Source: Fischerella sp. PCC 9431
GTDB taxonomy: Bacteria > Cyanobacteriota > Cyanobacteriia > Cyanobacteriales > Nostocaceae
Assembly (NCBI RefSeq): GCF_000447295.1
Contig: NZ_ALVX01000004.1
Span: forward strand, 62,001 to 126,000
Direction of reading: 5' to 3'
Length of the DNA stretch: 64,000 nt
Shown here: positions 9,164 to 57,812 of the stretch, piece after piece
Layout: every line of letters begins with the position of its first letter
How positions within the stretch are numbered: the first letter of the stretch is position 1
Made by a program: the position numbers and the translations under genes
Notes under the pieces: model-generated
Told to the model about the DNA's origin: nothing
The model's input: the letters and a program-made list of their open reading frames with translations, nothing else
Databases searched by the model: none

Positions 9164-9270
9164 CTAATCTCCTCGCTTTTTGATGATTTTTGAAATTTTT
9201 AGTAAGCGTTGTCTTCGCTTAATTTGTCAGCGGATTTTCAGACTATTAATTGAGTAATGAGAACCTGGTA

Positions 9271-38277: not shown

Positions 38278-40407
38278 CTACTTACTTTCGACCACTTCAA
38301 TCAGGGTTGATATCCCTGCTAATTTAGTTAGATCTACTGCTTGTACATCTTTTGGCATGATGACAAGACCAGCGCGAGACATTTCATCGAGGTCTTGGAA
38401 TAAATTTTCTATCACCTCTACTGATTCATCTTCAGAAAGTCCCATAGCAGAACCTCTAGCAAGATTGCGACTTCTGGCAACATTCTTTAACCCCCTTAAA
38501 GCATTACGCAGAGGTTTAACACTCGCCAGTACTAGCAACTCCAAAGTGCCAGATGGGCCACGCAGGCGGAATTCAAATTGATCTTCTGATTTCGGGACTG
38601 TAATAGTGTTTCCAGGAGCAACTAAAGCCGCATCTTCTGGCGCATCCCAATCGAGAGGAAACAAGACAACCAAGTCCCCACTTGAGTCAATTACTAGAAT
38701 ACTAATGTAAAGATTGCGGTTTTCTTCATTGTTCTGAACCTGAATCTGAATAATTGTATCCTCTGGAAACTGTACAGCTGGCTCAACCCGCTTCCATTGG
38801 AATTCTTGGTTTCCGCGACTAGAGGTAGTATCCACCGGTCGGATTGTGATAGTGACTTTTGGCGAGGATGATCCCTGCGTAACCAGCAGATGCAAGAGAC
38901 GCCCTACCAGTAAAGATTTAAGGCGCGATCGCAGTCTGTGCTGTATTGCTTGTTCTACTGTTTCTCCAGCAAGACCAAAAGAATCTGGTATAAGTTCTCG
39001 TCCGGCAGTAAATAAAGCGATCGCACCTACAGGTGGTAGATTGAGAGTACCTTGCTCTTGGAACTCGCGGAAGTCGTCTTCTGTGACACGCCCCAAAATA
39101 TAATCGACTACGTTCTGTTGTGTCACTGGCACTACTTTTATCCGCTTCACCCCTTGCAGCGCTATTTCTGCTTTGTCTTTTTCTGCATCTAGAGAAGAAT
39201 CTATCCCCACCTTCAAAGTCAAGTCACTAGGAATTCCGCGCACCCTTTCCCGCAACAAAACTCCTGGCTGCACAAGATGAAGTGGGGTGTCTTTGTCAAC
39301 TTTGCCGTACCCGACTAATCCCACACGAGATTGTTGTTCAATCAGTCTTTCCTCGCCTTGGCTATCAATAAAACTAAAAATTGATCCAGCTTGAAAACTT
39401 TCCAAAGTTTGGGAAGCTACCCCACCTAACCAAAATTCTATCTGCTCGCCCTGCACACTCCGGATAACCCCCTCAGCAGCAGGAGTTACCTGCTGACTAA
39501 AGTAAACGAGTTGTTGCTCATTGTTACTTGCAGGTTTGACTTCTAACTGTGGATTTTGATTGCGTTGAGCAATATCAGGAGTACGCAGCGATAAACCATT
39601 AAAGACTTTACGAACAGTGTTATTCTCAGTTTGTTGCCAGAGATAGCGAGTCAGCAAATAACTGAAAGCACCCGCACTAAAATCCCCAAAAGCAGCATCT
39701 GCGGCAAGTTGATCATCTTTAGCAGCAGCCAGCGCTACTCCCTTGGCAATACCCTGTTCTCGTCGTCGCTGAAACTCTTCTGTTGACAGATTAAGTTCTT
39801 TGAGCCACCGTTGCTGATACTTAAATTCTTCCGGACTGGCTTTCAAGGTCTGACCGCGATCCAAACTAGCTGAGCGAATAACCAAATTACCCCTCGTACC
39901 TCCTCCAGAATGACAGCAATCGAGAACAACTGTGACGTATTCAGTAGGAATGGCAGACATTAATAAAAATAGTGTCCGTCCCGTGATGTCTGGCACAACG
40001 TTGTCTTGCTTAATAGCACTGTCATACAGTACAAATGTGCTATTAAGTTTTCGCTCACCGATGGGAGTGGGATCAATGACCCGCGCACCGTGACCAGAAA
40101 AGTGAAAAACTACCACATCCCCTGGTTTAGCTTGTTTGATCAGATGTTCCTCGAAGGTAGCGAGTATGTTCTCACGGGTGGCTTCTTTATCTTTTACTTC
40201 CCGAATGTTCTCAGGATGGAAGCCAAAGCGGTGGATGAGAAGCTCTCGTTGCATTTCCACATCGGTAAGACAACCATTCAATGAACGGGTACCAGCAAAA
40301 GTATAGTCATTAATACCGACTAATAAAGCCAGTTTGCGAGGGGTACTTTGACCCAGTATTTGACCGTAAAGATTTGCCTGTTGAAGTTTTATCATAGGAA
40401 TTACCAC
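38278..40407 (-). CDS. Caspase-like protease (orthocaspase) with DUF4384-like C-terminus
   Basis: The caspase-fold p20 domain covers about residues 22-280, with catalytic His106 (FHFSGHGARV) and Cys165 (VVLDCCHSGGGTRG), both intact. Orthocaspases usually cut after Arg or Lys. The region beyond 450 includes a beta-rich DUF4384-type domain (NRNLYISILVIDSSGDLVVLFP). It is the last gene of a leftward run, 7 bases after the TPR-CHAT protease gene. A TPR-CHAT next to a caspase, downstream of membrane-active GTPases, suggests a proteolytic cascade leading to cell shutdown or death. The trigger and substrates are unknown. Confidence 0.9.
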   Translation of the reverse strand: MVIPMIKLQQANLYGQILGQSTPRKLALLVGINDYTFAGTRSLNGCLTDVEMQRELLIHRFGFHPENIREVKDKEATRENILATFEEHLIKQAKPGDVVVFHFSGHGARVIDPTPIGERKLNSTFVLYDSAIKQDNVVPDITGRTLFLLMSAIPTEYVTVVLDCCHSGGGTRGNLVIRSASLDRGQTLKASPEEFKYQQRWLKELNLSTEEFQRRREQGIAKGVALAAAKDDQLAADAAFGDFSAGAFSYLLTRYLWQQTENNTVRKVFNGLSLRTPDIAQRNQNPQLEVKPASNNEQQLVYFSQQVTPAAEGVIRSVQGEQIEFWLGGVASQTLESFQAGSIFSFIDSQGEERLIEQQSRVGLVGYGKVDKDTPLHLVQPGVLLRERVRGIPSDLTLKVGIDSSLDAEKDKAEIALQGVKRIKVVPVTQQNVVDYILGRVTEDDFREFQEQGTLNLPPVGAIALFTAGRELIPDSFGLAGETVEQAIQHRLRSRLKSLLVGRLLHLLVTQGSSSPKVTITIRPVDTTSSRGNQEFQWKRVEPAVQFPEDTIIQIQVQNNEENRNLYISILVIDSSGDLVVLFPLDWDAPEDAALVAPGNTITVPKSEDQFEFRLRGPSGTLELLVLASVKPLRNALRGLKNVARSRNLARGSAMGLSEDESVEVIENLFQDLDEMSRAGLVIMPKDVQAVDLTKLAGISTLIEVVESK

Positions 40408-40414
40408 CTTTTAT

Positions 40415-43318
40415 TTAGTTAAGAACAGTACCTTGGGTTTCTCCAATCAAAGTAAATGCTGCCCAATCTTTGGGATGGGGATGGTGTTCCATCGTTTTGA
40501 GCATCGCTTGGCGAAGGGCTTGGGCTTTATTGGGGTTGACCATGAGTTGGCAATAAAATTCTTTCATTAAATCGGCGGTGCAACCATCGTCAACTGCCCA
40601 CAGGGAAACAATGATACTGGGAGTTCCAGCGCTAATGAAAGACCGAGATAAGCCGAGAATGCCATCGCTGGTAATGTCTCCTCTACCTGTATCACAAGCG
40701 CTGAGGACAACTAGAGAAGCATTGAGTTCTAAGTCAAAAATTTCACCACTCGTCAGCAATCCGTCCTCTTTGCCCTCCTGGGGTGCTAAAGCTAGGGCTC
40801 CTGGTACATCTTGTCGGACTTGACCTTGGAGTTGTCCGTAATCGAGCAGTCCGTGTGTTGCCAGATGAATGATGTCTGCGTTGAGCAATTCGGATTTAAT
40901 GGTTGCCTCTGTAGCTTCTGCACCGATGAATGCTTTGGTATTGAACAGTTTGGCAATTTCGAGTGCTTCTTTTTCAGCGCCTGGTAGAGGAGGTAATTTT
41001 TCGGCTGGTTCTCCGACTTTGAAAGAAATGCTCGGCATGGTAGGGTTGCCGACAATCAGTATGGAGGAGGATTTCTGGACTTGAGAGTTCCGACTCGACC
41101 TTTGTTCTAGTTTTTGACGGGTTAAATCCAGCAGTTGAATTGAGGGCGCAGTTAGAACAGTGTGTTTTTCAATCAGATATTTGCCCTGCTCATCTTGCAA
41201 TGCTGCAAAGGGAACTAAGAATAGTTCTTTATGTGGAATAAAGATAACTTCGGCGTTCGGGTCAGAGGGTAATAGGTCGGCAATGGGCTTAATGAGCAAG
41301 TTATACAATTGTTGGAGGCGTTGTTTTTCCTCCACATCTGGTGTGTAGACGATTTCTACACTGGCGCGACCTTTGACATCAATAATGGCGTTACGGCTAA
41401 TAGTGATTAAGTCTTGTAATGATATGTTGAGGGATTTGAGGTTTACTTGCTTAAAGACAATTTCACCAATAGACTTGATAACCCAAATGTAGAGTTCCGA
41501 TCCATTAACTGAGTATTCAACAAGTGTGGCATTATGCTGTTGAGCAATTTCTCGAATTTTATTGATGCTAGGAGAAGGAATGGTTGTTTCAACTAATTGC
41601 CTGTTTAACTTCTTGCTCAACAAATCTACAAACGCCCTTGCTCGACTGCGTTCAGCAATTTCCAAGGCTGGTAAGGGTTTCTCTTGGTCAATCAAGACAT
41701 CTAACAGTAAATTGTAAGTTCTGGCTTGTTGTTCAAAGATTGATACTTTAAAGTTATCATGATCGCCCAGGCTTCCTCGTACAGACTCCCAAAGCTCAAT
41801 TCCCAGGCGTAGTTTACTTTCTGCTTCTTCAATTTGATTTAAGTATAAATAAGTAAGTCCTATGTCTGTGAGAGTACTTGCTTTTCCAGAAAGTTCTTGG
41901 ATCTCCTCCATAATTTGCAAACTCTGCTCGAAGGACTTTAGTGCTTTGGTATATTCGCCGATTAAAAGATAAATACTTCCCCGAAAGCCAATAGAATTTC
42001 CTCTACCAATCTGATCCTGTAGTCTCTCCTTAAGCGTCAAACTCCTTTCGTTGTACTGCCACGCCCCATTTAAATTTCCTTGGTAATAGTAAATCTCAGC
42101 TAAAGCTTGTAAGGCATTGGCTTGTCCCTGTTCTTCGCCTATATTCTCGGCAATTTTTAAGCTTTCTTGGTAACATGTTTCCGCACGAGTTAAGTCTCCA
42201 TTGACTATGTAATAGCCTCCCAAACCTTGCCGACTGCGTACCTGCAACCAGTGAGCAGTTTGATTATCTATCAAATCGGCGATCGCCAAACTCTGATCGT
42301 AGTAATTTTTCGCTTTCTCTTTCTCCCTCTGACCCAAGGCATCGTAACTTCTTCCTAGATCAAATAGAGCGTGAGCCTCTAAAAGGCGATTGTTTAAATT
42401 TTTGGCAATGGTCAAAAGTTTATTGTTGCACTCTATCGCCTTGGCATAATTGCTCGTGTAATTGTAGGAATCTTGCAAATGGTACAGAGCATCCATCTCT
42501 TTTTCGAGGTCGCCTGTTTCTTGGAAGATGACTTTAGCTCGCTCGTAGCACTTTATTGCCTTGGGAAAGTCTCTCTTATCATTGTCATACCAATAACAAG
42601 CTTTCCCTATGCAGCTTAGAGCAACAGCTTCTCCATGACGGTAGCCTATCTCCTCAGCAATGCTCAAACTTTCCTCGCAGATTTCTATAGCTTTGGCGAG
42701 CTCCCACTGGGGATAATTATAAGAGTTCCCCAGAGCGTTCAGAATGTTTACCCGTAGTTCCTTGCCAGCATCAGTATCTATCTCATTAGCGATCGCCAAA
42801 CCCCGCTCGTAATTATTTCTTGCACTGTCTAAATCTCTCAAGCCTTGATAATCAATTCCTAGATGGAATAGAGCTTCAGCTTCCAAAAAGCGCTCCTTAC
42901 AGTTTTGCGCGATGAGCAAAAGTTGCTTGCTTAACTCTATTGCCTTAGTATAATCATTTGTGTAACGGTAAAAGAAACGTATATAGTATAGAAGCATCGC
43001 TTCCATCTGCTGATAGCTTCTTTCCTGACAGATGGTTAAAAGCTGCTCGTAGTATTCTATTGCCTTAGAAAACTCCTGACTTCCAGAGTCAGCATTTCTA
43101 AAAGCAACTAACAAATTAACGACAGTATTAATTAGGCGTTCGGAAGCACCTATGTTGTTTCTGATTGCCAGATTTGCTGCACAATCTAGCATTGTTTGTA
43201 CCAACCCAGCATCTATCAGGTTTTGATTGGCTTTCAAAATAGCTGATTCTTCACCGCGAGGATGGTTTAGCAGCACTTCAATCAGATTTAGATAAGCTTG
43301 ACGACGATTTTCATTCAT
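40415..43318 (-). CDS. TPR-CHAT protease
   Basis: About twelve tetratricopeptide repeats (roughly residues 60-540) lead into a C-terminal CHAT domain, a separase-like caspase-fold protease. It carries catalytic His in DIIHLATHGLLDYG and Cys in LVVLSACDTGRGD, followed by the family ending GTPSIIVSLWAVDD and HPKDWAAFTLIGE. I prefer ATG 43318 because the second TPR-CHAT of this window opens in the same way (MN...R..AY). It is cotranscribed with the caspase gene 7 bases downstream and lies 195 bases after the third dynamin-like gene. The TPRs probably hold a sensor or substrate. CHAT proteases elsewhere activate gasdermins or cut CRISPR partners. Confidence 0.9.
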   Translation of the reverse strand: MNENRRQAYLNLIEVLLNHPRGEESAILKANQNLIDAGLVQTMLDCAANLAIRNNIGASERLINTVVNLLVAFRNADSGSQEFSKAIEYYEQLLTICQERSYQQMEAMLLYYIRFFYRYTNDYTKAIELSKQLLLIAQNCKERFLEAEALFHLGIDYQGLRDLDSARNNYERGLAIANEIDTDAGKELRVNILNALGNSYNYPQWELAKAIEICEESLSIAEEIGYRHGEAVALSCIGKACYWYDNDKRDFPKAIKCYERAKVIFQETGDLEKEMDALYHLQDSYNYTSNYAKAIECNNKLLTIAKNLNNRLLEAHALFDLGRSYDALGQREKEKAKNYYDQSLAIADLIDNQTAHWLQVRSRQGLGGYYIVNGDLTRAETCYQESLKIAENIGEEQGQANALQALAEIYYYQGNLNGAWQYNERSLTLKERLQDQIGRGNSIGFRGSIYLLIGEYTKALKSFEQSLQIMEEIQELSGKASTLTDIGLTYLYLNQIEEAESKLRLGIELWESVRGSLGDHDNFKVSIFEQQARTYNLLLDVLIDQEKPLPALEIAERSRARAFVDLLSKKLNRQLVETTIPSPSINKIREIAQQHNATLVEYSVNGSELYIWVIKSIGEIVFKQVNLKSLNISLQDLITISRNAIIDVKGRASVEIVYTPDVEEKQRLQQLYNLLIKPIADLLPSDPNAEVIFIPHKELFLVPFAALQDEQGKYLIEKHTVLTAPSIQLLDLTRQKLEQRSSRNSQVQKSSSILIVGNPTMPSISFKVGEPAEKLPPLPGAEKEALEIAKLFNTKAFIGAEATEATIKSELLNADIIHLATHGLLDYGQLQGQVRQDVPGALALAPQEGKEDGLLTSGEIFDLELNASLVVLSACDTGRGDITSDGILGLSRSFISAGTPSIIVSLWAVDDGCTADLMKEFYCQLMVNPNKAQALRQAMLKTMEHHPHPKDWAAFTLIGETQGTVLN

Positions 43319-43534
43319 GGCTATACCCATAGCAGTCATCGACAGTAAGCACTACACAAGTTGGAAAAATCATTCAAAACTGGGAGAGTGTTAGGGTAGC
43401 GATCGCAAAGTGCCAAGCCCAGTAACTTAAAACCTTTACCTAAGCTAGTTTTCAATTCTTTGTCACCGCACCCGTAGTATTAAGTCCCCCAACTAAGGAA
43501 AGTTGCGATTTTACCGAAGAAAGAGAAGAATAAT

Positions 43535-45529
43535 TTACATAGTCGCTACTTGTGTAATTAGTTCATCTAACTCGCTGTCAATTGCATCTAAATTTTTGCG
43601 AATAGATGCCAACTCACGCAATTTCTGTTCGACATTATCCTGCCCTTTTTGCTTTTCTGACAAAATAGAATCTACCTGGTCTCGAATATTTTGAATTTCC
43701 TGACCAAGTTCTTGGTCAACAGCATCGTTAATCTTGCCTATTTGCTGGATGACAGTATTGCTAAGTTCGTCGGCTCTTTGGTAACTATCTGTACGAATTT
43801 GGTTGATAAATTTCTCAGTGACTGCTGCCTTAATTTTGTCATTAGTTGACTGAATTTTCCAAGCACCTTGAACGATACCGCCAATAACCATAGCCGGAAT
43901 CAGAATAAACGGATTGAAACCAGCAAAGGCATAAGTTATACCAAGTAAAGCGAATTGTGCAATTAAACCTTTCGCCATTTCTTGAAAACCAAAAGCTGCT
44001 CCCAATGCACCAGCAGCAGCATTTCCCAACAAATAACCTCCAGCAGCAGCAAGAACTCGCTCAAGTAAAGACACTTTTGCGTCTTGATATGTGATTGCAT
44101 CTTGGGAAGCAGAAGTACCAGCAATTAAATCAACACGTAAATCTTCTACGTTTCTAACAAATGCTTCTGCTCTTTGTTCTAATTCAAGCATGAGGTTTTG
44201 TAATCGCTCAGTTAAAAATGGTTGTAGTTCTGAAGATTGCCATGTAGCAAATTCTGTCTCTATCCTGTTGGCAAGATAGTTTTTAACTTCTTCGACTACT
44301 TTTTCTATCTGTGAAGTCACCCATTCTAACTTCAAAAACTGAACTGGCTCTTTAATTTCATATTCTGTCATCCACTCTGTGATTTTTGTTTCAGCTAGTT
44401 CTTGATAGAACTGCTGTGTTTTTTGGTGTACAGATGGCTTGGTATCAGCAATAAAGTTAGATACACGGGTAATTATTTGCTGACGTTCCAATTCTAGTAA
44501 TCTCAATGGTTCTTGAGCAGCTTCATATCGTTCTTCTATAGTTTTTAAATCAGTTCGTAGTAGTGTTTCTCGCTCAGGAATTATTCGCCTTGCCTCACGA
44601 ATTGCACCTTTGATTTCTTTAGCAGGTTGGAGAATTTTGAGTCGTCCTTTTTGTGTGGTGAGAAATGTTGCTAACTCCGCTTCCAACTCAGGTACACCGG
44701 ATTGATTCAATCGCTGCTCATCTGCTTCTAGCCGACCTTCCAGCGCACCAAGAGCATCAATAAAAAATATACTTTCTTTACCACGTTTTGTACGTTCAGC
44801 TAGTTTAGAAAAAGCATGTTCTTTAATACTTTCTCTTTCTTTAGCTCTAATTTGGTTGATTCGATTGCAAATGAAGAAAATATCTTCATGTCCCATGCTA
44901 ATCAAATTATTATCTATGAAACTAAGCTCACTTTGAGAACAAAGAACTTCACAAGAGAGAACAAACAGAACAGCATCGACAGTGGATAAGTAATCCATTG
45001 TGACTTTCTGGCGAATTTCATGCTCATTTAGTCCAGGAGAGTCAATAATTTCTACACCATCTTTACAAATTTCTAAAGGCCAGAATAACTCTAACTTTTC
45101 GTAAGAGTTTTCTTTAATTTCACCTACGTTATCTTTAATTACCACATACTCTTCGATTTGATCAATCGGAATGTCCTTGGCTGGCTTGACTCCATTATCT
45201 GTAGAGTTGGTGTAATGCAGTAAAGCACGTTTAGGATCTCCCCATTTAACCTCATTAATGATGGCAGTACAGGGCTTTGCATAAGCAGGCAAAACTTCAT
45301 CGCCTAGCATGGCATTAATAAAAGTACTTTTACCGCGCTTGAATTCTCCTAAAACTAGTACTTTAAAGCTGTCTGCCTGAACACGAGTTTCCAATTTATG
45401 CAAAGTGTCTTCCCAACCTTTCATATCTAGGGAATCTAATACTTCCAATTGGCGCTGAATGAGAGCAACTAAAGCTTTCCGCCGTTGTTGAAACAAGTCG
45501 AACTGTTCGTGGGTGGTAGTCTGAATCAT
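43535..45529 (-). CDS. Dynamin-like GTPase, copy 3
   Basis: The G1 motif GEFKRGKST, the G2 threonine in AKPCTAIINEV and the G3 motif IIDSPGLNE define a dynamin-like GTPase of about 664 residues. The G4 position reads NRIN rather than NKxD, which is weak. A long helical stalk follows, then a hydrophobic paddle with AAAGGYLLGNAAAGALGAAFG and FNPFILIPAMVIGGIV near residues 500-560. I start at ATG 45529, five bases after GGAGG. Such proteins bend or fuse membranes, and some protect against phage lysis. It lies in tandem with two other dynamin-like genes. Confidence 0.88.
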   Translation of the reverse strand: MIQTTTHEQFDLFQQRRKALVALIQRQLEVLDSLDMKGWEDTLHKLETRVQADSFKVLVLGEFKRGKSTFINAMLGDEVLPAYAKPCTAIINEVKWGDPKRALLHYTNSTDNGVKPAKDIPIDQIEEYVVIKDNVGEIKENSYEKLELFWPLEICKDGVEIIDSPGLNEHEIRQKVTMDYLSTVDAVLFVLSCEVLCSQSELSFIDNNLISMGHEDIFFICNRINQIRAKERESIKEHAFSKLAERTKRGKESIFFIDALGALEGRLEADEQRLNQSGVPELEAELATFLTTQKGRLKILQPAKEIKGAIREARRIIPERETLLRTDLKTIEERYEAAQEPLRLLELERQQIITRVSNFIADTKPSVHQKTQQFYQELAETKITEWMTEYEIKEPVQFLKLEWVTSQIEKVVEEVKNYLANRIETEFATWQSSELQPFLTERLQNLMLELEQRAEAFVRNVEDLRVDLIAGTSASQDAITYQDAKVSLLERVLAAAGGYLLGNAAAGALGAAFGFQEMAKGLIAQFALLGITYAFAGFNPFILIPAMVIGGIVQGAWKIQSTNDKIKAAVTEKFINQIRTDSYQRADELSNTVIQQIGKINDAVDQELGQEIQNIRDQVDSILSEKQKGQDNVEQKLRELASIRKNLDAIDSELDELITQVATM

Positions 45530-45582
45530 ATTAACCTCCAAAAAATTTCAGAATTTAAAACAGATGAAGACGAAGACAAGGA

Positions 45583-47340
45583 TTAATGGTTGGGCGTTTC
45601 TACTGCTGCGAGGATTTGTTGTTTCAAAGCCTCAGCTTTCTCAATCATTTGTTGCCAAGGTTGTTCATCGGAATCTGGGTGACTTGCTTCAATCGCAGCC
45701 GTTTTGGCTGACTGCCAGGTAACTTGTTGGCGTTGAGTATCTTCTGCTATTTGCTGGTATATCTGGCGTAGTCGCTCAAAGATCCGCTCGCAGTATTCGT
45801 TAAATGCCTTGTCTACAGAAAGTTCCAATTTCTTCTGTACTTGTTGTCGCTGTTCCTCTAATTTGTCAGTGAGGAATTGTTCGCTGAGAATGGCTGCACC
45901 CAGACTGACAGCGATCGCCACCACCGCTGCTCCTCCTGTAAGATAACTACCAATTACCGCAACACCACTGCCAAGTCTTGTTAACCAGCGGTAACGCTGA
46001 ATAGGAGACATTTCCAACTGTGGTAAATTAGGTCTGATCTCTAGAGTTTCCTGTTTTTGACTTACTGGTTGAGTCATTTGAGTAGAAAATGTGCGAGATA
46101 CTTCTGCTGTTAGCCAGTCAAAATCATCAGCAATTTCCTTGAGCAAGAATTCTTCGGATTTCTGTCCCAAAGAAAATAACTCCCGCCGCAACCGCCAAGG
46201 TAAGTCACGCTCCCACCAAGTTTTGGGATTATCTGTCTGACTCAATTCTTGGTTGAGTACTTCTATGAGTGTGCTTTTGCTACTGAAAAGATTCTCCTTT
46301 AATTTTTGTCCGTGCTGAATACGTCGCCGATCCAACTCTAGGCGAATTTGTTCCCATTGAAGTTCAGCAGTTCGCATTGCTGCTTTTGCCTTTTTTAGGG
46401 CCTGTTCGTGTTCAGCAGCGCTCATTTTGGCAGATGCGATCGCCACAGAACTTATATCAATCAATTGAGTCAATATATCAATGAGTTGTTTTGCTACCTG
46501 CTGAGAGCGCCATGCTTTGTGATTGCCACCTGTCACCATTGCAGTAATTTGCGATCGCACTGCTTCTATTGCTTCGGTCTCGTTCGTATTTTTATTTACT
46601 GGATAAGATGGTAAAACTGGTATATCTACCGAAATTTGGGCTATCCGTTCTCTAGTGACAGCTATTACTTCTTCTCGTTGTTCATGTTGAATGGTATCCA
46701 ACTTAGATATAATGACTACAATTTGGGGAATGTGCTTACCAATCACTTCTTGTTCGAGAAAGGCAGCTTCCGTCATACTGAAGGGCAGCGTGGCACTAAC
46801 TAACAGTACTGTGGCATCACACTGACTAAGTAAATCAAAGACAATAGCCGCGCGAGTAGTATTGAGTTCTCCAATTCCTGGCGTATCAATTAATTCAGCA
46901 TCCAGTGCTTCTAGCCAAGGGTGAACTACGGTGAGCTGGACTTTAGCTAATACATCCCGCTCTTTACCCTCTGAGTCACTTACGATCAAGTCATCCCAAG
47001 AAGCAGCATCTATTGCCCGACTCACTTCTGGGCTACTGTCAAAACTCACTACCATGCTATCTTCTGTGCCAGGAGTAATAGTAGTTAGAGTTGCTGTGGT
47101 TGGCAATGCTCCCGTTGGTAGCAGTTCTCTCTCCAACAATCGATTGAGCAAAGTACTTTTACCACGACTAAATTCACCAACAACAGCCAGCCGAAAACCA
47201 GGAAAACGCAAGCGTTCTGTGATGGTTTGCAATTGGGCAACTATCTGTGCAACAGAACAGGATTCTGCCAGTAGCGAACTTTGGGAAAGCCAAGAGTCAA
47301 GATACTGACTAAGATCCATAGGATGTTGATCAATCGTCAT
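45583..47340 (-). CDS. Dynamin-like GTPase, copy 2
   Basis: The 585-residue protein has G1 GEFSRGKST, G2 LPTTATLTT, G3 LIDTPGIGE and G4 SKLD (VVIISKLDTI), all in order, so GTP binding is likely. Helical stalk segments flank a hydrophobic stretch (RLGSGVAVIGSYLTGGAAVV, residues about 455-490). AGGAG precedes the ATG at 47340. The gap to the next gene is 53 bases, consistent with one operon. Its divergence from the neighbouring copies suggests heteromeric pairing, as in cyanobacterial and Campylobacter DLP pairs. Confidence 0.88.
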   Translation of the reverse strand: MTIDQHPMDLSQYLDSWLSQSSLLAESCSVAQIVAQLQTITERLRFPGFRLAVVGEFSRGKSTLLNRLLERELLPTGALPTTATLTTITPGTEDSMVVSFDSSPEVSRAIDAASWDDLIVSDSEGKERDVLAKVQLTVVHPWLEALDAELIDTPGIGELNTTRAAIVFDLLSQCDATVLLVSATLPFSMTEAAFLEQEVIGKHIPQIVVIISKLDTIQHEQREEVIAVTRERIAQISVDIPVLPSYPVNKNTNETEAIEAVRSQITAMVTGGNHKAWRSQQVAKQLIDILTQLIDISSVAIASAKMSAAEHEQALKKAKAAMRTAELQWEQIRLELDRRRIQHGQKLKENLFSSKSTLIEVLNQELSQTDNPKTWWERDLPWRLRRELFSLGQKSEEFLLKEIADDFDWLTAEVSRTFSTQMTQPVSQKQETLEIRPNLPQLEMSPIQRYRWLTRLGSGVAVIGSYLTGGAAVVAIAVSLGAAILSEQFLTDKLEEQRQQVQKKLELSVDKAFNEYCERIFERLRQIYQQIAEDTQRQQVTWQSAKTAAIEASHPDSDEQPWQQMIEKAEALKQQILAAVETPNH

Positions 47341-47442
47341 ATAAAATTCTCCTATTAAACAATCACTTTCTGAGTGGGGAAATCAACAACTGCTAATCAA
47401 TTGTCAAGAACACTTTGCGCTTTGAGAAAATCCTCGATATCT

Positions 47443-49401
47443 TTACTTACCTTCAATTGCTGCTAACCTTTGTTGCTTTGCAGATAAAGATTTTCGTCGT
47501 CTGTCTATTTCTTGAAGATCCGCTTGCATGGTTGTCTGCAAGTTAGTCAAACGCTGCAATTGTGTTTTCTGCTCTTGCAAGATACGATCAACGGTTGCCT
47601 TGTACTGCGCCATGTATTTGTCAATACGCTGTTTCAGCGCAGCACTAACACTATCTGCATAGGTTTGCACTGCACTTTGAGCTTGTCCTTTCACATTGTT
47701 AAAGTGAGAATCTAGTGAAGGGCGCAATTTGTCCCACAATTGCTGCTTGCGTTTCTCTAAGGAAGCACCCATAATCCCACCGGATACAATTAGACCGACT
47801 ACACCACCTATGACTGTACCTACAACTGGTAAGATAGCAGTGCCGATTGCGATTCCAGTAGCTATTCCTCCAACTGCAACAAAACCATCTTTAGTGTCCA
47901 TCTGTTCTTGAAGTGATTGCATAGAAGTAAAAACATCAGATGTGTTGATTTGCACACTATTATGCATAGTGTTCTGAATTTCAAACCCTCCTCCGAGCGT
48001 CTGTAACCGACTATACACTTCAACAAATTTGCTATCAAAATCACGACTGGCTGCTATTGCTACTTGTGATATACTCTTGATTTTTTTTTGTAGTTCCTGT
48101 TGTAGTTCATTCTGAGCTGTTTTCAGGATTGATTCCGCCTCATTTTTGACAACATTCTCTAGCGCTTGTAAACTTTCAGCATTGAAGATAGCGTTGTGTA
48201 TTTTTGATATAGTTTTATCTCGATATTTTTCAACACACTGACTACTCTTTGTTATCGTTACTGAGATAGTGTCTTCAAGCATTCGCTGACACAACAACTG
48301 CTGTTCAGCAGTAAATAAAGCAAGATCCGGGATAATTTCTCGTTTAATCACTTCTTGACGGTGCTGATAATTTTCCCACTGCGATCGCAAATTTTCCTCT
48401 AGCTGCTCAAATAATCGTGTTAAAAGACGCAAAACATTTTCTGATATAGCGAGTAAGCGCTCTCGACACAAGCGGTTAATGACTAATTTTTCTAGCTGTT
48501 CAAATCTCTGTTTCCACACGAGTAAGTCTGGTGGTACTGGTTCTTCACCTGTAATATCATCCATCACCACTTGCGCGGAACAGCTGTATAAAATTGGTGG
48601 TTTAATGCCAAGTTGTTCTACAAGGCGCGATCGTAAGTTATTCAACACATCACTTTGTTCCCTCTGCCTAATTTGATCCATACGTGTGACTACAAATACA
48701 CAGCGATGAATAAAAGGGCGCAAAGTACTCCCCAAAAAACTGGCTAAACTCTGTGATAAAGGCATCGTTGCTGGAATAATAATAATTGCTGCATCAGCCT
48801 CGTTCGCTATGACTTTTCTGGTGACTTCTCCATGTAGGGTACTGGTGGCATTAGTTCCAGGTGTGTCAATAATCACAATACTATTGGCAAGAAAAGGAGC
48901 AGGGTGGGTAATAGTGAGTTGCTCCACATCTTTAGCAACTTCATCTTTAGTGGTCAGGACGTGAATAAACTCTCGATTATCAATACCATTAACTCCAGGT
49001 AACCACGGGATAGTGATTTTTTGGCTATTTAAATGGGTTTTTATAGTTCCTGAGCGAGTTCCGCCTAGCTGTACTTCGACTTCTAGGCAACTGCCGTAAC
49101 ACAGTTTAGTAGCAGCAGCTGTGGTTGGTAAAACTGAGGTTTTGAGCAAATCATCTCGCAGTAGTGCATTGATAAAAGTACTCTTTCCACTAGAAAATTC
49201 CCCAATAACTGCTAAGTAGAGATTAGGATTACCACGTCGCTTTTGAATTTGGTTAATTCGAGAATCAATTTCGCTTTTTAACGTAGTAGAAATCTCTTCT
49301 CCCTGGATTATATTTGCAGCAAACTGCAAGTGGTCTTCAACATCCGTCAAAGCATCGAGTTCATCTATAGTTTCTTGAGTTTTAATATTTGTCACAATCA
49401 T
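47443..49401 (-). CDS. Dynamin-like GTPase, copy 1
   Basis: The G1 motif GEFSSGKST, G2 LPTTAAATKL, G3 IIDTPGTNA and G4 TRMD (FVVTRMDQI) identify a 652-residue dynamin-like protein. A Gly/Val-rich hydrophobic paddle (VAVGGIATGIAIGTAILPVV, near residue 515) is framed by long coiled-coil stalks, and the C-terminus is Gln/Arg-rich and helical. It is the second gene of the leftward GTPase-protease run. Together with copies 2 and 3 it may build a membrane coat or fuse vesicles upon a trigger. Confidence 0.88.
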   Translation of the reverse strand: MIVTNIKTQETIDELDALTDVEDHLQFAANIIQGEEISTTLKSEIDSRINQIQKRRGNPNLYLAVIGEFSSGKSTFINALLRDDLLKTSVLPTTAAATKLCYGSCLEVEVQLGGTRSGTIKTHLNSQKITIPWLPGVNGIDNREFIHVLTTKDEVAKDVEQLTITHPAPFLANSIVIIDTPGTNATSTLHGEVTRKVIANEADAAIIIIPATMPLSQSLASFLGSTLRPFIHRCVFVVTRMDQIRQREQSDVLNNLRSRLVEQLGIKPPILYSCSAQVVMDDITGEEPVPPDLLVWKQRFEQLEKLVINRLCRERLLAISENVLRLLTRLFEQLEENLRSQWENYQHRQEVIKREIIPDLALFTAEQQLLCQRMLEDTISVTITKSSQCVEKYRDKTISKIHNAIFNAESLQALENVVKNEAESILKTAQNELQQELQKKIKSISQVAIAASRDFDSKFVEVYSRLQTLGGGFEIQNTMHNSVQINTSDVFTSMQSLQEQMDTKDGFVAVGGIATGIAIGTAILPVVGTVIGGVVGLIVSGGIMGASLEKRKQQLWDKLRPSLDSHFNNVKGQAQSAVQTYADSVSAALKQRIDKYMAQYKATVDRILQEQKTQLQRLTNLQTTMQADLQEIDRRRKSLSAKQQRLAAIEGK

Positions 49402-49506
49402 ATGCCTTTTTCAATAAACCAAGATAAACACAAACTTTAGAATGAAGGATGCACCACTAGTAATCCATGATCTAAAGGAATCCAGTGATCTCAACATAGT
49501 TTAAAA

Positions 49507-50691
49507 TTAGCTTTCGTCCTCTAGAGGCTCGTAATCTTCAATTCTTTTGCTTCTTTGAAGCCTCTCCAACTCTTGCTTGAATCTCTCTCTGATGAAATTC
49601 TCCATCCATTCTTTAGTGTATGTAACTTCTTCGCCTTCAATAATGGATTTAGTAATCTGACCGAAGAGTGCGTTAAAGCTAAAGCCAAGTGCAGCTGTAA
49701 GTATGGCAGCAATTGTTCCATCAATAATACTACCGATGATTGTTCCTATAACCGGGTAAAATTTAAGAAAATCGGCAAGAACAAGTCCTACATTAGCAAC
49801 AAAACTAGTCGTTATTATTCCTCCTAAAGCGCTAATAACTGTTTGGGTAGGCTTAAAACCGTAGATAACGGTTATACGAGCAATTAATGTAGACTGTGTG
49901 GTTATTAGTAGTGGAGTATCCGAGAAAGGTATGGGGCTAAAACCGATAACAAAGGCAGTTGTTGAAAACGTTTTTATAGCTTTTGTTGCTTCTCTGTCTT
50001 TCTCCCTTAAACTTACAATTTGGGCTGCTATAAATGCACGTTTTGACAAATCAGGAAGTATGTCTAAAGTTTTGCTAACAACTTTGTCAAGACCATAAGG
50101 GTCAAAAATACGAACTCCGCGTTTCGTTATTGGATTTGCGGCAACATCTATTGTGTCTACTCGATTAGGTATTGTTTTTTGAGCGATAACATCCTTGAGG
50201 CTATCAATTTGTTCGTTTGTTGCAATATCACCCTTTGAAAGGATAACGAGTACAGGTATATTCTTTAGTACATCTTTTAAGATTTTAGTGTCAAAATCTG
50301 TAAAACGCGCACTTGATGCATCTATTAAATACCATACTATGTATATATGATCTTGTGGGTTTTTTGTTCTACGTTGGTTAAGAAAATCTTCTGTATCCTT
50401 AAAAAATTTTTCTTCTCCCTCAGATCCTCCTTCCCATCCAGCTGAGTCATAAATGTTCACCAGTACATCTGGGCTAGAGTAAAAATAGTATGAATCGGTA
50501 ACAGGTTGACCGCTACCAACTTTTGCAGTACTACTGCCAAACATTGCATTAATCAATGAACTTTTACCGACTCCTGTTCGCCCAATAATCAGAATATTTG
50601 GCTTTTTAAGATCATCGAACTCCTCCTTTACTTTTTCTTGAAAGAGGTTCTGAAAATTCTTAATCCAATCAGCAGAAAAATCCTGAGTCAT
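49507..50691 (-). CDS. IRG-like GTPase with hydrophobic C-terminus
   Basis: A G domain fills residues 25-195: G1 GRTGVGKSS, G2 threonine in PVTDSYYFY, G3 YDSAGWEGG and G4 SKGD. The C-terminal half has several Gly/Ile-rich hydrophobic helices, such as LADFLKFYPVIGTIIGSIID, like the DUF697/IRG membrane-binding regions. It is the first gene of the leftward run, divergent from the NB-ARC-WD40 gene. Interferon-inducible-type GTPases act on membranes of intruders in animals, and a similar role here is only an analogy. Confidence 0.8.
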   Translation of the reverse strand: MTQDFSADWIKNFQNLFQEKVKEEFDDLKKPNILIIGRTGVGKSSLINAMFGSSTAKVGSGQPVTDSYYFYSSPDVLVNIYDSAGWEGGSEGEEKFFKDTEDFLNQRRTKNPQDHIYIVWYLIDASSARFTDFDTKILKDVLKNIPVLVILSKGDIATNEQIDSLKDVIAQKTIPNRVDTIDVAANPITKRGVRIFDPYGLDKVVSKTLDILPDLSKRAFIAAQIVSLREKDREATKAIKTFSTTAFVIGFSPIPFSDTPLLITTQSTLIARITVIYGFKPTQTVISALGGIITTSFVANVGLVLADFLKFYPVIGTIIGSIIDGTIAAILTAALGFSFNALFGQITKSIIEGEEVTYTKEWMENFIRERFKQELERLQRSKRIEDYEPLEDES

Positions 50692-50914: not shown

Positions 50915-53900
50915 ATGAACTTTGAGGAAGCGCTGGAAGTTGCTAATGAAGCAGTCTTTGTGGAAGTGGGAAGACGGCTTAGTAAAGTAGAAGTTGCTAT
51001 CCTCAAAGGCTCTTGGGATAATTTGACCTACGAACAAATTGCTTTGGCAGCTAATTATTCCGTGGCATATGTAAAGCGACATGCTGGTCCTGAGCTTTGG
51101 AAACTGCTTGCCGAAGCATTGGGCGAGAAGGTCAGTAAAAACAACTTTCGCTTTGCTCTAGAGCGCCGATGGCGCAGAGATTGGAGGGCAGAGAGAGTAG
51201 GGGAAACTCTGGAGAATTCAATCCAAAATCCAAGATCCAAAATTCAAAATCGAGCAGACTGGGGAGAAGCGATTGATGTCTCTGTGTTCTATGGACGCAC
51301 AGCAGAACTCAACACACTCAACCAATGGCTGACCAAAGAGCGTTGCCGATTAGTAGCACTGCTGGGAATGGGGGGAATTGGCAAAACCTCTCTAGCTGCT
51401 AAACTAGCTCAACAAGTTGAGGGGCAGTTTGATTACTTTATTTGGCGATCGCTCTACAATACTCCACCACTTCTTGAGCTTTTGGCTAACTTAATTCAAT
51501 TTTTGTCCGCAGATCAGGTTTTAGAAGCTGATTTACCAAACAGCGTAGACGGCAGAATCTCGAAACTAATTGATTATTTGCGCCAATATCGCTGTCTTCT
51601 TGTTCTCGATAATGCTGAGACCATTCTACAAAGTGGCGCTATTACTGGAAGCTATCGAGAAGGTTATGAGGAATATGCTCAACTTATCAAACGAATTGGA
51701 GAAGTTACCCACATTAGTTGCCTTGTGCTGACTTCACGGGAAAAACCGAAAGAGGTAGCCTTACTTGAAGGAGAAGCACTACTTGTTCGCTCATTACAAC
51801 TGAGTGGTTTACATGTGGTTGATGGACAAAAAATCTTTGAAATCAAGGGATTGTCTAGCTCTGAGTCAGAATTAAGACCCGTAGTTGAGCGCTATGCAGG
51901 TAACGCCTTAGCCTTGAAGATAGTTGCAACAACAATTTTAGATGTTTTTAATGGTAATATTTCTAACTTTCTAAAAGAAAATACATCTGTTTTTGGTAAT
52001 ATTCGCGAAATTTTAGACCAACAATTTTCGCGTTTGTCAAATTTAGAAAAAAATATAATGTACTGGTTAGCAGTTAATCGTGAGCCAGTTTTATTATCAG
52101 AATTGCAGGATGATATTGTATCACTGATACTACCACAAGAATTATTGGAAGCTTTGGAGTCTTTGGTAAGACGATCCCTTATTGAAAAAAACTCTATGCT
52201 CTTTACTTTACAACCTGTAGTCATGGAGTACATAACTAATAAATTTATACAAAATATTTGGCAAGAAATTACAACTCATAAAATTTATTTATTCAAAAGC
52301 CATGCTTTAATGAAAGCAACAGTAAAAGACTATATTAGAGATATACAAATCCGTCTGATTCTCAAACCAGTTATAGATGGACTACTAAAGATTTTTAGAA
52401 ATCAACGAATCTTGGAAAATCAACTAACTAAAATTTTAGTAACGCTACGAGAAACATTCCCAGAAGAACAAAGTTATACGGCTGGAAATGTCCTGAATCT
52501 GCTTTGTTATCTGAAGACCGATCTTAGTAACTATGATTTTTCGCATCTCACAGTTCGACAAGCAGATCTACGAAATGTGAATTTGCACAATGTGAATTTT
52601 AACCACGCTCATCTAGCTCAGTCTTTATTTGCAGAAACTTTTGGTGGGGTTTTGTCATTAGCATTTAGTCCCAATGGAAAATTTTTAGCTATTGGAGATA
52701 TGAATAGTGAGATTCGCTTGTACCAAGTTGGTGATTGGAGACAGCTAAACATCTTTAGAGGTCATACTGATTGGGTTTCAGCAGTCGCCTTTAATTATGA
52801 CACTAGTATTTTTGCCAGTGGCAGTGAAGACCAAACAATCAAGCTTTGGAATATCACAACTGGTCAATGTCTCAATACCTTACAGAGACATGAACAGGGA
52901 ATTTGGTCACTTGTCTTTAGTTCAGATGGGAAAGTATTGGTCAGTAGCAGTGATGACAAGACTGTAAAGATATGGGATGTGAGTACTGGTCAGTGCTGCA
53001 AAACTTTGCCAGGACATCAAAATATGGTGAGGACTGTCGTTTTGAGTCCTGACAACAAAGTATTAATTAGCGGTAGCGTGGATAAAACACTGAAGCTGTG
53101 GGATGTTAGTACTGGTAAATGTTTAAGAACTTTGCAAGAACATGATGAAGGGATTTGGTCAGTTGCTATCAGTCCAAATGGAAAGATACTTGCTAGTGGT
53201 AGTGGCGATGGAGCAGTCAAGTTATGGGATATTAGAACTGGTGAATGTCTGATGACCTTGCAGGGACACTCTGATTGGGTGATGTCACTTGCATTCAGTC
53301 GAGACGGGCAAACCCTGGCAAGTGGTAGTTGGGATCAGAAAGTGAAGCTGTGGAATGTCAGTAGTGGTGAGTGCCGGAAAACTTTGCTAGGACACAATAG
53401 TATGATCCGAGCAGTTATGTTTAGTCCTGATGGTCAAATCTTGGCAACTGGCAGTAATGACCAAACTTTAAAACTGTGGGAAGTTGCTACTGGTCAATGT
53501 TTAAAAACTATGCAGGGATATGGTAATCGTATCTGGTCAATTGCTCTTAGTTTTGACGGTCAAATGCTGGCTAGTAGTGGTGATAAAACGGTGAAATTGT
53601 GGGACATCAACACTGGCGAATGCTTCGCAACACTTATCGGACATAGCAATGAGGTCAAGTCAGTGGCATGGAGTCCTGATGGTGGTATTGTCGCCAGTGG
53701 CAGTGAAGACAAAACGATCAAGATATGGGATATTAAAACTTGTAAATGTCGACAAACTTTGCAAGGACACTCGAATTGGATTTGGGCAATTGCTTTTAGT
53801 CCCGATGGTCGTACTTTGGCTAGTGGTAGTCATGACCACACAGTGAAATTATGGGATGTCGAGACTGGTCAATGCTGGAAAACTTTACATGAAGAAAACC

Positions 53901-54526
53901 ACGGAGTTTTGTCAGTCACCTTCAGCCCTGATGGTCTAACTTTAGCTAGTGGTGGTCATGACCATACAGTAAAGATATGGGAAATCAACACTGGTAAATG
54001 CCTGAAAAGTTTGCCAGGACATACAGGGTGGGTGTGGTCAATTGCCTTTAGCCCCGATGGACAAATCCTGAGTAGTGGAAGTGGAGATCACGTAGTCAAG
54101 ATATGGGAAGTCAAGACTGGTAAATGCTTGAAAACATTGCCAGGACATACAGGGTGGGTGCGATCGCTCGCCTTTAGTCCAGATGGCAAAATTCTCAGTA
54201 GTGGTAGTATGGATCAAACAGTGAAGTTATGGGATGTAAAAACTGGTGAATGCCTCAAAACTTTACAGCAACCTACTCAAGCAGTTTTATCAGTTACATT
54301 TAGTCCTGAAGGGCATACTCTAATCAGTAGCGGAGAAGATGAGACGCTGAAGATTTGGAATATCTTGACAGGTGAATGTATAAGAAGTTTGAGAAGTAAA
54401 AGACTCTACGAGGGTATGAAGATTACCGGTGTTACTGGGTTAACTCAGGCGACGCTTAGTACTCTTAAAAGTCTGGGGGCGATTGAAACTGAACTGCACA
54501 TCAACAAAAATGGGCGAGTTTCTTAA
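50915..54526 (+). CDS. HTH-NB-ARC-WD40 STAND protein (1203 aa)
   Basis: The domain order is clear. Residues 1-90 form a vWA-MoxR-associated (VMAP-type) helix-turn-helix (RLSKVEVAILKGSW...TYEQIALAANYSVAYVKR). Residues about 120-450 form an NB-ARC ATPase with the P-loop GMGGIGKTS and LVLDNAE. A few pentapeptide-like repeats follow (LRNVNLHNVNFNHAHL), then fourteen WD40 repeats (about 580-1165), enough for two seven-bladed propellers, and a short tail. Such APAF1-like proteins oligomerise on ligand binding. It is divergent from the GTPase-protease operon across 223 bases and convergent with the second TPR-CHAT gene, so it is a plausible sensor for either. Confidence 0.92.
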   Translation: MNFEEALEVANEAVFVEVGRRLSKVEVAILKGSWDNLTYEQIALAANYSVAYVKRHAGPELWKLLAEALGEKVSKNNFRFALERRWRRDWRAERVGETLENSIQNPRSKIQNRADWGEAIDVSVFYGRTAELNTLNQWLTKERCRLVALLGMGGIGKTSLAAKLAQQVEGQFDYFIWRSLYNTPPLLELLANLIQFLSADQVLEADLPNSVDGRISKLIDYLRQYRCLLVLDNAETILQSGAITGSYREGYEEYAQLIKRIGEVTHISCLVLTSREKPKEVALLEGEALLVRSLQLSGLHVVDGQKIFEIKGLSSSESELRPVVERYAGNALALKIVATTILDVFNGNISNFLKENTSVFGNIREILDQQFSRLSNLEKNIMYWLAVNREPVLLSELQDDIVSLILPQELLEALESLVRRSLIEKNSMLFTLQPVVMEYITNKFIQNIWQEITTHKIYLFKSHALMKATVKDYIRDIQIRLILKPVIDGLLKIFRNQRILENQLTKILVTLRETFPEEQSYTAGNVLNLLCYLKTDLSNYDFSHLTVRQADLRNVNLHNVNFNHAHLAQSLFAETFGGVLSLAFSPNGKFLAIGDMNSEIRLYQVGDWRQLNIFRGHTDWVSAVAFNYDTSIFASGSEDQTIKLWNITTGQCLNTLQRHEQGIWSLVFSSDGKVLVSSSDDKTVKIWDVSTGQCCKTLPGHQNMVRTVVLSPDNKVLISGSVDKTLKLWDVSTGKCLRTLQEHDEGIWSVAISPNGKILASGSGDGAVKLWDIRTGECLMTLQGHSDWVMSLAFSRDGQTLASGSWDQKVKLWNVSSGECRKTLLGHNSMIRAVMFSPDGQILATGSNDQTLKLWEVATGQCLKTMQGYGNRIWSIALSFDGQMLASSGDKTVKLWDINTGECFATLIGHSNEVKSVAWSPDGGIVASGSEDKTIKIWDIKTCKCRQTLQGHSNWIWAIAFSPDGRTLASGSHDHTVKLWDVETGQCWKTLHEENHGVLSVTFSPDGLTLASGGHDHTVKIWEINTGKCLKSLPGHTGWVWSIAFSPDGQILSSGSGDHVVKIWEVKTGKCLKTLPGHTGWVRSLAFSPDGKILSSGSMDQTVKLWDVKTGECLKTLQQPTQAVLSVTFSPEGHTLISSGEDETLKIWNILTGECIRSLRSKRLYEGMKITGVTGLTQATLSTLKSLGAIETELHINKNGRVS

Positions 54527-57600: not shown

Positions 57601-57646
57601 TCAAAAATTGCATATAAGCTTCGTAGCGCTGTTTGTTGATGTTCAT
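54611..57646 (-). CDS. Second TPR-CHAT protease
   Basis: Seven or more near-identical 46-47-residue TPR units (each with GDKAQN(I/L)E and LAIAAFT) cover about residues 90-430, followed by a helical region and a CHAT domain. Catalytic His is in NYLHFACHGYFNL and Cys in LVILSACETGLID, then GSSCVVSSLWKVDDE and the C-terminal YYWAAFTAIGK. I start at ATG 57646, since the opening MNINKQRYEAYMQFL matches the other TPR-CHAT. Upstream in-frame ATG 57715 is less likely. HIP1 octamers sit at the same point in six repeat units. It is convergent with the NB-ARC-WD40 gene. Confidence 0.9.
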   Translation of the reverse strand: MNINKQRYEAYMQFLMNLLQATDESEGNPQVVYPLLQNNLEYLNQDFAELLRRWARWAINVRTTVETDEAQYRATVIGQFSDLIQQFHLGDKASNIEIAIAGYEAVLTVFTRNAHPRNWATTQIGLGIAYCNRICKDKAQDLELAIAAFTSALEVFTHNAYPQEWAKTQMNLGSAYFYRIRGDKAQNIELAIAASRAALEVFTRDDAYPQNWAEVQNNLGTAYLYRIRGDKAQNIELAIAAFTDSWKVFDSNEYRYQRAKTQVNLGIAYSDRIRGDKIENLEFAIAAFTDALKVYQTHDAFPQDWAKTQMNLGKAYLNRTYGDKAENLELAIAASTAALQVYTRDAFPQEWATTQNNLGIAYFHRIDGDKAQNIENAIAAFTAASEIRTRDASPQQWAMTQNNLGNAYRNRIRGDKAQNFAQAIAAYTPILKVYTRDTFPENHAQTLFNLGLVYLDAQQFNSAYQNLKSAIETVELLREEIISGSETKRKQAEQWNRLYHCMVKTCLELNNIVQAIEYVERSKTRNLVELILNRDSKNIFPADVANQLEQLREEIAAGQDKIQNGIAENPKALGQHLQKLRQQRNQLQDQYLPVGYSFNLAHFQANLDKQTAIIEWYITSFGWETFIITHDNIQRLNICTQNDKLKVLLGDFQEYVTEYFKNIDAWKNSLNSRFTNFAKILQIENILNNLIPKTYSRLILIPHVFLNLFPLHTLPLTDGELLFEQFSNGVSYAPSCQLLQQIQQRKRSNFESIFAIHNPTKDLPNTELEVEQILPLFSSRQVLSKSQATKDQLYKAAPNLKEVNYLHFACHGYFNLISPTNSCLLLADAYVSSVPVDADSEKYLKSSNGKNVDLSKCLTLGNLFDGVFDLNQCRLVILSACETGLIDFNNMSDEYIGLPSGFLYAGSSCVVSSLWKVDDESTAYLMMKFLQNLREAFSSGQDVSVAVALNQAQKWLRDVTWDDLKKWKNSLPPDITTTRATIRIVWQSENFDSNKPFASPYYWAAFTAIGK

Positions 57647-57812
57647 AGGTAATGGAGAATTTTTAAAATCTTCGTCCGATCGCTTGTAAAGTATGGTGAA
57701 AGTAGGGCAACGCAAAAATAAGCATTCCAGGATTTCAGAGCGGCCACTTTTATTTATTATTCAAATTCATGCAATTTATGATTATAGTGTTCTGAATTCT
57801 GTATTTCGACTC

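Follow-up and report, generated by a model that had tools for sequence, protein, structure and literature searches.

The DNA analysed here is a 64,000-nucleotide stretch of Fischerella sp. PCC 9431 (contig NZ_ALVX01000004.1, positions 62,001 to 126,000; hereafter the window, to whose numbering coordinates refer unless another stretch is named). The contig, C2, comprises 182,124 bases of a genome of 8 contigs and 7.17 Mb and is probably a plasmid. Six genes in the window read leftward and encode, in transcription order, a DUF697-type GTPase, three dynamin-like GTPases (D1, D2, and D3), a protease with tetratricopeptide repeats (TPRs) and a CHAT domain (CHAT1), and an orthocaspase (Table 1). An earlier sequence-only reading of the window had described six leftward genes with gaps of about 7–220 bases; all six minus-strand open reading frames (ORFs) were confirmed, with gaps of 105, 102, 41, 195, and 7 bp, the longest between D3 and CHAT1 and the shortest between CHAT1 and the caspase gene. 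Comparison with other genomes established that the dynamin set, not the six-gene unit, is the recurring part of the locus, and that it is found in three bacterial phyla.

Table 1. The six-gene run and adjoining features of the window (aa, amino acids; scores in bits).
Feature	Position	Strand	Basis
DUF697-type GTPase (previously termed IRG-like)	49507..50691	-	MMR_HSR1 43 bits, DUF697 38.4 bits; two hydrophobic stretches
D1, dynamin-like GTPase, 652 aa	47443..49401	-	Dynamin_N 91.7 bits; hydrophobic stretch 506-549
D2, dynamin-like GTPase, 585 aa	45583..47340	-	Dynamin_N 88.7 bits; hydrophobic stretch 458-492
D3, BDLP1-type dynamin (from profile similarity), 668 aa	43535..45541	-	Dynamin_N 92.0 bits, PF21808 57.4 bits (cut-off 28.3); hydrophobic stretch 530-564; G4 motif NRIN
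CHAT1, TPR-CHAT protease, 974 aa	40415..43339	-	CHAT 242.6 bits (cut-off 24) and TPRs; THG at 828, ACDTG at 881
Orthocaspase with DUF4384, 709 aa	38278..40407	-	Peptidase_C14 81.3 bits (cut-off 21.4); DCCHSG
Putative dynamin cassette, 94-95% DNA identity with Calothrix sp. MO_192.B10 (L061), two segments	43516..49396	-	blastn of L061 against the window: 49396-45579, 45568-43516
D3-CHAT1 junction (the slot)	43340..43534	-	Matches genome G073 as far as 43410 and diverges from there
NBWD, NTPase with a P-loop (GMGGIGKT by inspection) and WD40 propellers	50915..54526	+	WD40 repeats (Pfam); divergent from the six-gene run
CHAT2, second TPR-CHAT protein	54611..57715	-	CHAT 175.4 bits; convergent with NBWD

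The Pfam assignments of the dynamins, CHAT1, and the caspase all exceed curated cut-offs. Each of D1, D2, and D3 combines a Dynamin_N G domain with the P-loop and DxPG motif of the dynamin superfamily and has one hydrophobic stretch in a Kyte-Doolittle scan, a candidate for a membrane paddle or hairpin. CHAT1 carries both the His and Cys motifs of CHAT proteases, and the caspase has the His-Cys dyad of C14 orthocaspases, with His106 and Cys165 invariant across five aligned caspases. Thus, the three dynamins and two proteases with intact active-site motifs had been correctly recognized from the sequence, as had the G motifs of the four GTPases: G1 and G3 are present in all of them, with the correction that G4 of D3 is noncanonical. 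The label 'IRG-like' for the first GTPase was not borne out. Pfam IIGP (PF05049) is not among the eight families that match it at E values up to 1e-3, and in a PDB search with a profile of nine relatives, IRG structures rank below EngB, Der, and septins and match over 63–72 positions around the P-loop; 'DUF697 GTPase' is the safer name. Another DUF697 GTPase, in L048, has a sub-threshold IIGP match (E 0.046).

As judged by profile comparison, D3 is of the BDLP1 type, helical-domain homology included: it matches BDLP1 (2J68) with an E value of 8e-67 at positions 35-654 of 663, nearly the full length. The best solved relatives of D1 are the Campylobacter jejuni DLP pair (5OWV, 3e-21), followed by BDLP1 (2J68, 6.5e-20). 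The canonical G4 motif [NT]KxD is absent from D3; NRxN occupies this position in 13 of 16 aligned D3 proteins, and the last G4 residue is Asn in 15 of 16 (counted by eye), suggesting altered nucleotide recognition or a regulatory subunit.

Distribution of the dynamins was determined in a draw of 118 genomes of the family, the window's own included, using thresholds of >480 bits for D2, E up to 1e-70 for D3, and E up to 1e-60 for D1. D2 orthologues occur in nine of these genomes, again including the window's own, and the next match falls to 96 bits; D3 was found in 11 genomes, seven of which also have D2, and D1 in eight. In a draw of 386 genomes of the phylum, D2 is present in six. A scan of genome contigs in named organisms yielded 15 D2 loci, a sample that is by construction defined by D2: 11 are cyanobacterial, two are from Chloroflexi, and the Actinobacteria Streptomyces and Pseudonocardia contribute one each. 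D3 directly follows D2 in 14 of the 15 loci (in L063 it is split, and in L064 the contig ends within it), the exception being L067, where other dynamins lie downstream. D1 is encoded upstream on the same strand in nine; no D1 is seen in L063 or L065, L068 carries a fragment of D1 together with a separate D1 on the opposite strand, and L071 and L074 begin at D2, with the upstream genes out of view. In the Chloroflexi locus L073, a TIR-WD40 gene directly precedes D1. A protein search of a plasmid collection that may lack records close to the window's genome returned no match to D2, and none was confirmed in viral contigs, a phage-record collection not being part of the search.

The near full-length match of D3 to Nostoc BDLP1 is in agreement with a role in membrane maintenance, in which a BDLP1/mitofusin-type fusion or repair machine would be subject to proteolytic turnover and play no part in phage defence. 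Likewise, cyanobacteria commonly have dynamins, some of them encoded in tandem, and tandem A/B pairs have been described (available sections of PMC5827413), and the neighbouring upstream gene in L065 encodes an SLT transglycosylase, which is not of an immune type. The patchy occurrence of D2 in both genome draws, the sharp borders of the dynamin block, and its setting in a defence island are, however, unlike those of housekeeping genes, and this explanation is considered improbable.

A further gene, here termed X, lies directly before D2 in six of the 15 loci (L062, L064, L067, L070, L072, and L075) and encodes a protein of 263–318 aa. Gln107, Cys113, His217, and Asp238 are invariant in seven aligned X proteins, and the Pfam C39_2 scores fall below the cut-off of 24 (22.4 bits in L062, 17.9 in L070, and no match in L072); given the invariant residues and these sub-cut-off scores, X is probably a papain-like, C39-like peptidase. 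Comparison with solved structures gave one match, at E 0.3, which was taken as chance. Among the 386 phylum-draw genomes, X occurs in eight, and five of the six D2 genomes carry it on the same contig and strand as D2, the sixth being the window's own; in G224, both D2 and X are incomplete. In three of its eight genomes, X occurs without D2, and the stretches fetched around X there (L092, L093, and L094) yielded no dynamin; its occurrence thus extends beyond dynamin loci. D2 is 733–855 aa long in loci with X and 590–702 aa in complete X-less loci, save L061, where it has 585 aa as in the window. By eye, some X-less loci have a D2 whose N-terminus is similar to the first residues of X.

The nearest dynamin set is that of Calothrix sp. 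MO_192.B10 (L061; genome G070 gives the same alignment). The block of DNA that it shares with the window has its upstream border at 49396, 5 bp inside D1, and its downstream border at 43516, 19 bp past the D3 stop codon. The other three genes of the run are absent from the block, its flanks are unrelated between L061 and the window, and all other listed blastn matches between the two fall within the CHAT2 gene. In L061, a resolvase-family recombinase gene lies 844 bp upstream of D1. D1-D2-D3 is here described as a putative mobile cassette. Its sharp borders also favour an explanation in which the locus is a defence-island collage: the DUF697 GTPase (with or without NBWD and CHAT2), the dynamin cassette, and the TPR-CHAT/caspase genes would have landed co-oriented with no joint function. 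GC content varies from 0.37 to 0.45 along the run, which fits a collage, and the longest gap of the run, between D3 and CHAT1, points in the same direction. A consensus scan found 26 promoter-like sites versus 28.4 in shuffled sequences and 11 terminator-like sites versus 10.4, without an excess of either, and is uninformative on whether the run forms a single transcript.

The relatives of the outer genes also favour a collage. The five nearest relatives of CHAT1 in the 118 genomes (56–65% identity, blastp) were fetched in stretches of 13–17 kb. In each of the five, the CHAT gene is directly followed, on its own strand, by a caspase-domain gene whose product is 28–32% identical to the window's caspase, and none of the stretches has a dynamin match. 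Since the tandem recurs without dynamins, the TPR-CHAT/caspase pair is a self-standing two-gene module; further CHAT-caspase tandems appeared in hit lists (L089, L090, and L091), and in L081 the two genes are divergent. Among the best eight DUF697 GTPase relatives (28–37% identity, seven genomes), none is beside the triad in any of the seven. One is divergent from a 52% identical NBWD, as in the window (L084), another is embedded in a series of CHAT2-type genes (L085), and a third is 2.3 kb from a single dynamin gene that lies on the opposite strand (L087). Within the 15 D2 loci, a DUF697 GTPase is found near the triad only in L066, where it is divergent, about 0.8 kb off, and 25% identical. 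Thus, a conserved six-gene unit is ruled out by the cassette borders and the relatives' gene neighbourhoods. The sequence-only reading had treated the six genes as one combined system and had named scattering of their homologues among related genomes as the pattern that would speak against it. Such scattering was largely observed: the dynamins occur independently of both the DUF697 GTPase and the CHAT-caspase pair.

What follows D3 in close relatives speaks against a collage. Apart from the window, the closest D3 proteins are encoded in G070 (94% identity), G073 (75%), G037 (72%), and G047 (69%), and G032 has a decayed copy (65%). In G070, represented by L061, a TPR-CHAT gene cut by the contig end begins 59 bp past D3; its product is 56% identical to CHAT2 over 727 aa, versus a best local match to CHAT1 of 40% over 99 aa at the N-terminus. 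In G073 (stretch L106), the gene next after D3, 147 bp on with its start at 9230 of that stretch, encodes a caspase 25% identical to the window's and is followed by a gene of 1673 aa that gives another caspase match and resembles WD40 proteins. In G037 (L098 and L108), beyond a 173-aa ORF on the opposite strand, D3 is followed by a CHAT-TIR-AAA_35 gene, then an AAA_35-TPR gene, and then a CHAT gene. The next same-strand gene after D3 therefore encodes a CHAT or caspase protein in three of four close relatives with an open D3 frame, and the kind differs each time. The window and G073 also have NBWD in common, divergent beside the dynamins (in G073, beside D3) and 70% identical between the two. 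L106 9253-11494 aligns to window 43410-45649 (82%), covering D3 and reaching the very end of D2, and the DNA match resumes from 50759 on; the two loci thus share ancestry that includes NBWD and the dynamins. No match to the DUF697 GTPase, D1, or CHAT1 was seen in the G073 stretch.

Two readings of these data come to the fore. The one adopted here, tentatively and with somewhat less than an even chance, is a modular conflict locus of NLR-like kind, in which exchangeable proteases are coupled to a dynamin complex; the collage is rated about as likely. Counted in favour of the modular conflict locus are the CHAT and caspase genes after D3, the NBWD shared with G073, X before D2, multi-dynamin arrays elsewhere that carry M48 and DUF697 or TIR and FGE genes (described below), the defence-island setting, and the reports on bacterial dynamins in the available parts of PMC6104087 and PMC8844932. 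Several observations weigh against it. The triad is not constant: any of the three dynamins is found in 13 of the 118 family genomes and all three in five (G000, G016, G070, G086, and G116), and D2 is missing from G037 and G047, which have D1 and D3 as a pair. Of the 15 D2 loci, one (L061) has a CHAT gene adjacent to the dynamins and none a caspase gene, so adjacency of such proteases is not a general rule in the wider sample, and the tandems nearest to CHAT1 occur without dynamins, as described above. G047 has no protease beside its D1-D3 pair despite 78 CHAT and 17 caspase matches genome-wide, the gene after D3, about 1 kb on, encoding a TonB-receptor-like barrel, and no CHAT or caspase gene lies beside the decayed D3 of G032. 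The G073 locus may itself be decaying, because its D3 (L106 9378-11372), which retains an open frame, has a P-loop, GESKGGNS, that has lost its lysine. With the window left out, only immediate neighbours (in G070 and G073) counted among G070, G073, G037, and G047, and 0.85 genes per kb assumed, the probability of at least two of four such neighbours is 5e-4 if CHAT and caspase genes together are as dense as in the genome at large and 0.04 if they are locally ten times as dense. The enrichment of caspase-fold proteins after D3 is hence suggestive, not conclusive, since four genomes are few and clustering was crudely handled.

Taken together, a protease-linked immune function of the dynamins is plausible, and a dynamin set whose neighbouring proteases change hints at an undescribed protease-linked defence pathway. 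A proteolysis-triggered membrane immune pathway had been proposed from the sequence; it is upheld in part, in that dynamins, caspase-fold proteases, and a STAND-WD40 gene recur together in the nearest relatives and the window's own run is set in a defence island, and falls in so far as it presupposed a conserved six-gene system. In the modular conflict locus proposed here, the core would be the D1-D2-D3 cassette, whose products probably hetero-oligomerize on a membrane; heteromeric membrane bridging is suggested because D3 is of the BDLP1 type and D1 has its best match among solved structures in the tethering pair of C. jejuni. Adjoining it would be exchangeable signalling or effector genes, namely, the divergent NBWD, the DUF697 GTPase, and the protease slot after D3, filled here by the TPR-CHAT/caspase module. 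WD40 or TPR proteins would sense invasion, CHAT and then the caspase would be activated, and at least one dynamin or dynamin partners would be cleaved, whereupon the dynamin assembly could clamp the membrane, with lysis delayed as reported for DynA, or disrupt it, causing cell death. A more far-reaching proposal is rated unlikely: that the locus represents an undescribed kind of immunity in which a hetero-oligomeric three-dynamin machine is switched by a dedicated protease, the C39-like peptidase where the wider operons include one, as many do, and, in the lineage of the window, an exchangeable CHAT, caspase, CHAT plus caspase, or CHAT-TIR protein encoded after D3 under a STAND-WD40 sensor. 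If true, bacteria would have in the three-dynamin machine an equivalent of membrane executioners gated by proteases, of which the caspase-gasdermin axis is an example, the pore-former being replaced by dynamins.

The surroundings of the six-gene run are a defence island. The window also holds a gene for a DruE-like helicase (24217-30600), Cas1 (16822-17826), a separate reverse transcriptase gene (17952-18914), and near the latter two a CRISPR array beginning at 13293 with 36 copies of a conserved repeat. The 2127-aa helicase adjoins two uncharacterized genes of 309 and 1320 aa (24217-35473), and the three are perhaps a Druantia-like system. NBWD is a likely STAND sensor, presumably with an NB-ARC domain, although no NB-ARC match is among the Pfam matches listed. 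A second NBWD-like ORF extends from 62764 to the window edge and is 49% identical over 372 aa to an NBWD-like protein of L045. No Rfam family matches the window at gathering thresholds. Dynamin genes also accompany relatives of other genes of the window: in L100, a dynamin gene lies between relatives of the ThiF/E1-like gene (6703-8184) and Cas1, and in L099 one lies beside relatives of the same two genes.

Other multi-dynamin arrays were picked from the hit list and are not a sample. In L046, L047, L048, and L053, three or four dynamin-like genes occur with a 322-aa gene, of which a single copy, that of L046, was scanned and encodes an M48 peptidase; the L048 array also carries a DUF697 GTPase, and WD40-type genes are near by in L046, L047, and L048. 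In L049 (4723-16391) and L050 (3772-15661), five dynamin-like genes are flanked by a TIR gene on one side and an FGE-sulfatase-like gene on the other, in what looks like another dynamin immune operon; one of the five in L049 is without the standard P-loop pattern.

Among known systems, Eleos (LeoA/LeoBC), an anti-phage system, offers a further explanation, that of an Eleos-type defence system with passenger genes. The PADLOC LeoA and LeoBC models match D1, D2, and D3, with LeoA reaching 93.6 bits against D1 and LeoBC 38.6–53.9 bits. Because all three dynamins match both models, these matches look generic, and D1 scores 35.5 bits against the curated LeoA/HP0731 subfamily, for which 325 is required; the likeness is one of general dynamin similarity, and an Eleos-type system is very improbable. 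NTP-dependent conflict systems follow the same theme of an NTPase switch with exchanged caspase or TIR effectors (PMC7159879, in the part available). The window's caspase scores 45.8 bits with NF047832 of the EACC1-caspase system, against a cut-off of 140, and no MoxR-vWA or GAP1 match is among those listed for the nine proteins scanned. The words 'dynamin' and 'CHAT' (the latter as a whole word) do not occur in the available main text of PMC7159879, nor do 'dynamin' and 'operon' in the available text of PMC8283722. Csx29 of Craspase (type III-E CRISPR) has the TPR-CHAT architecture in common with CHAT1, which scores 28.2 bits with NF041237 against a cut-off of 300.

The closest likenesses are those to bacterial dynamins. 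D3 has the same architecture as BDLP1 of Nostoc punctiforme (PDB 2J68/2J69/2W6D). In the sections of PMC5827413 available, the HSR1 clade comprises cyanobacterial dynamins whose genes have one for an HSR1-family GTPase downstream, so the association of a dynamin with an HSR1-type GTPase is not new in itself; here, the HSR1/DUF697 GTPase lies upstream instead, and the locus differs from the clades described there in its three distinct dynamins, the NRxN G4 of D3, and neighbours of peptidase or caspase fold. The contexts listed in section 7 of that paper are KGK, HSR1, chaperone, and tandem, and the section names no triad or protease. As in the window, the unlike dynamins DLP1 and DLP2 of C. jejuni are encoded together, and they tether membranes (PDB 5OWV, PMC6104087); they are a pair, not a triad, and the abstract names no protease. 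DynA of Bacillus subtilis delays phage lysis and protects at the population level (PMC8844932); the likeness lies in the dynamin, DynA being a single one, with no protease or gene cluster named in the abstract. A full-text literature search yielded no three-dynamin operon with proteases among the matches listed (titles and abstract starts, with few subscription papers). If the coupling is real, it would tie membrane remodelling to caspase-like signalling in bacteria in a small, testable gene set; if there is juxtaposition only, the dynamin operon with its C39-like peptidase would still be a multi-dynamin system worth characterizing. Bacterial dynamins with tandem pairs and HSR1-GTPase neighbours, CHAT and caspase proteases, and WD40 STAND proteins are each already known singly; what seems new, among the matches listed in that search, is a multi-dynamin operon that occurs in three phyla and either includes a peptidase gene or is followed by varied caspase-fold genes.

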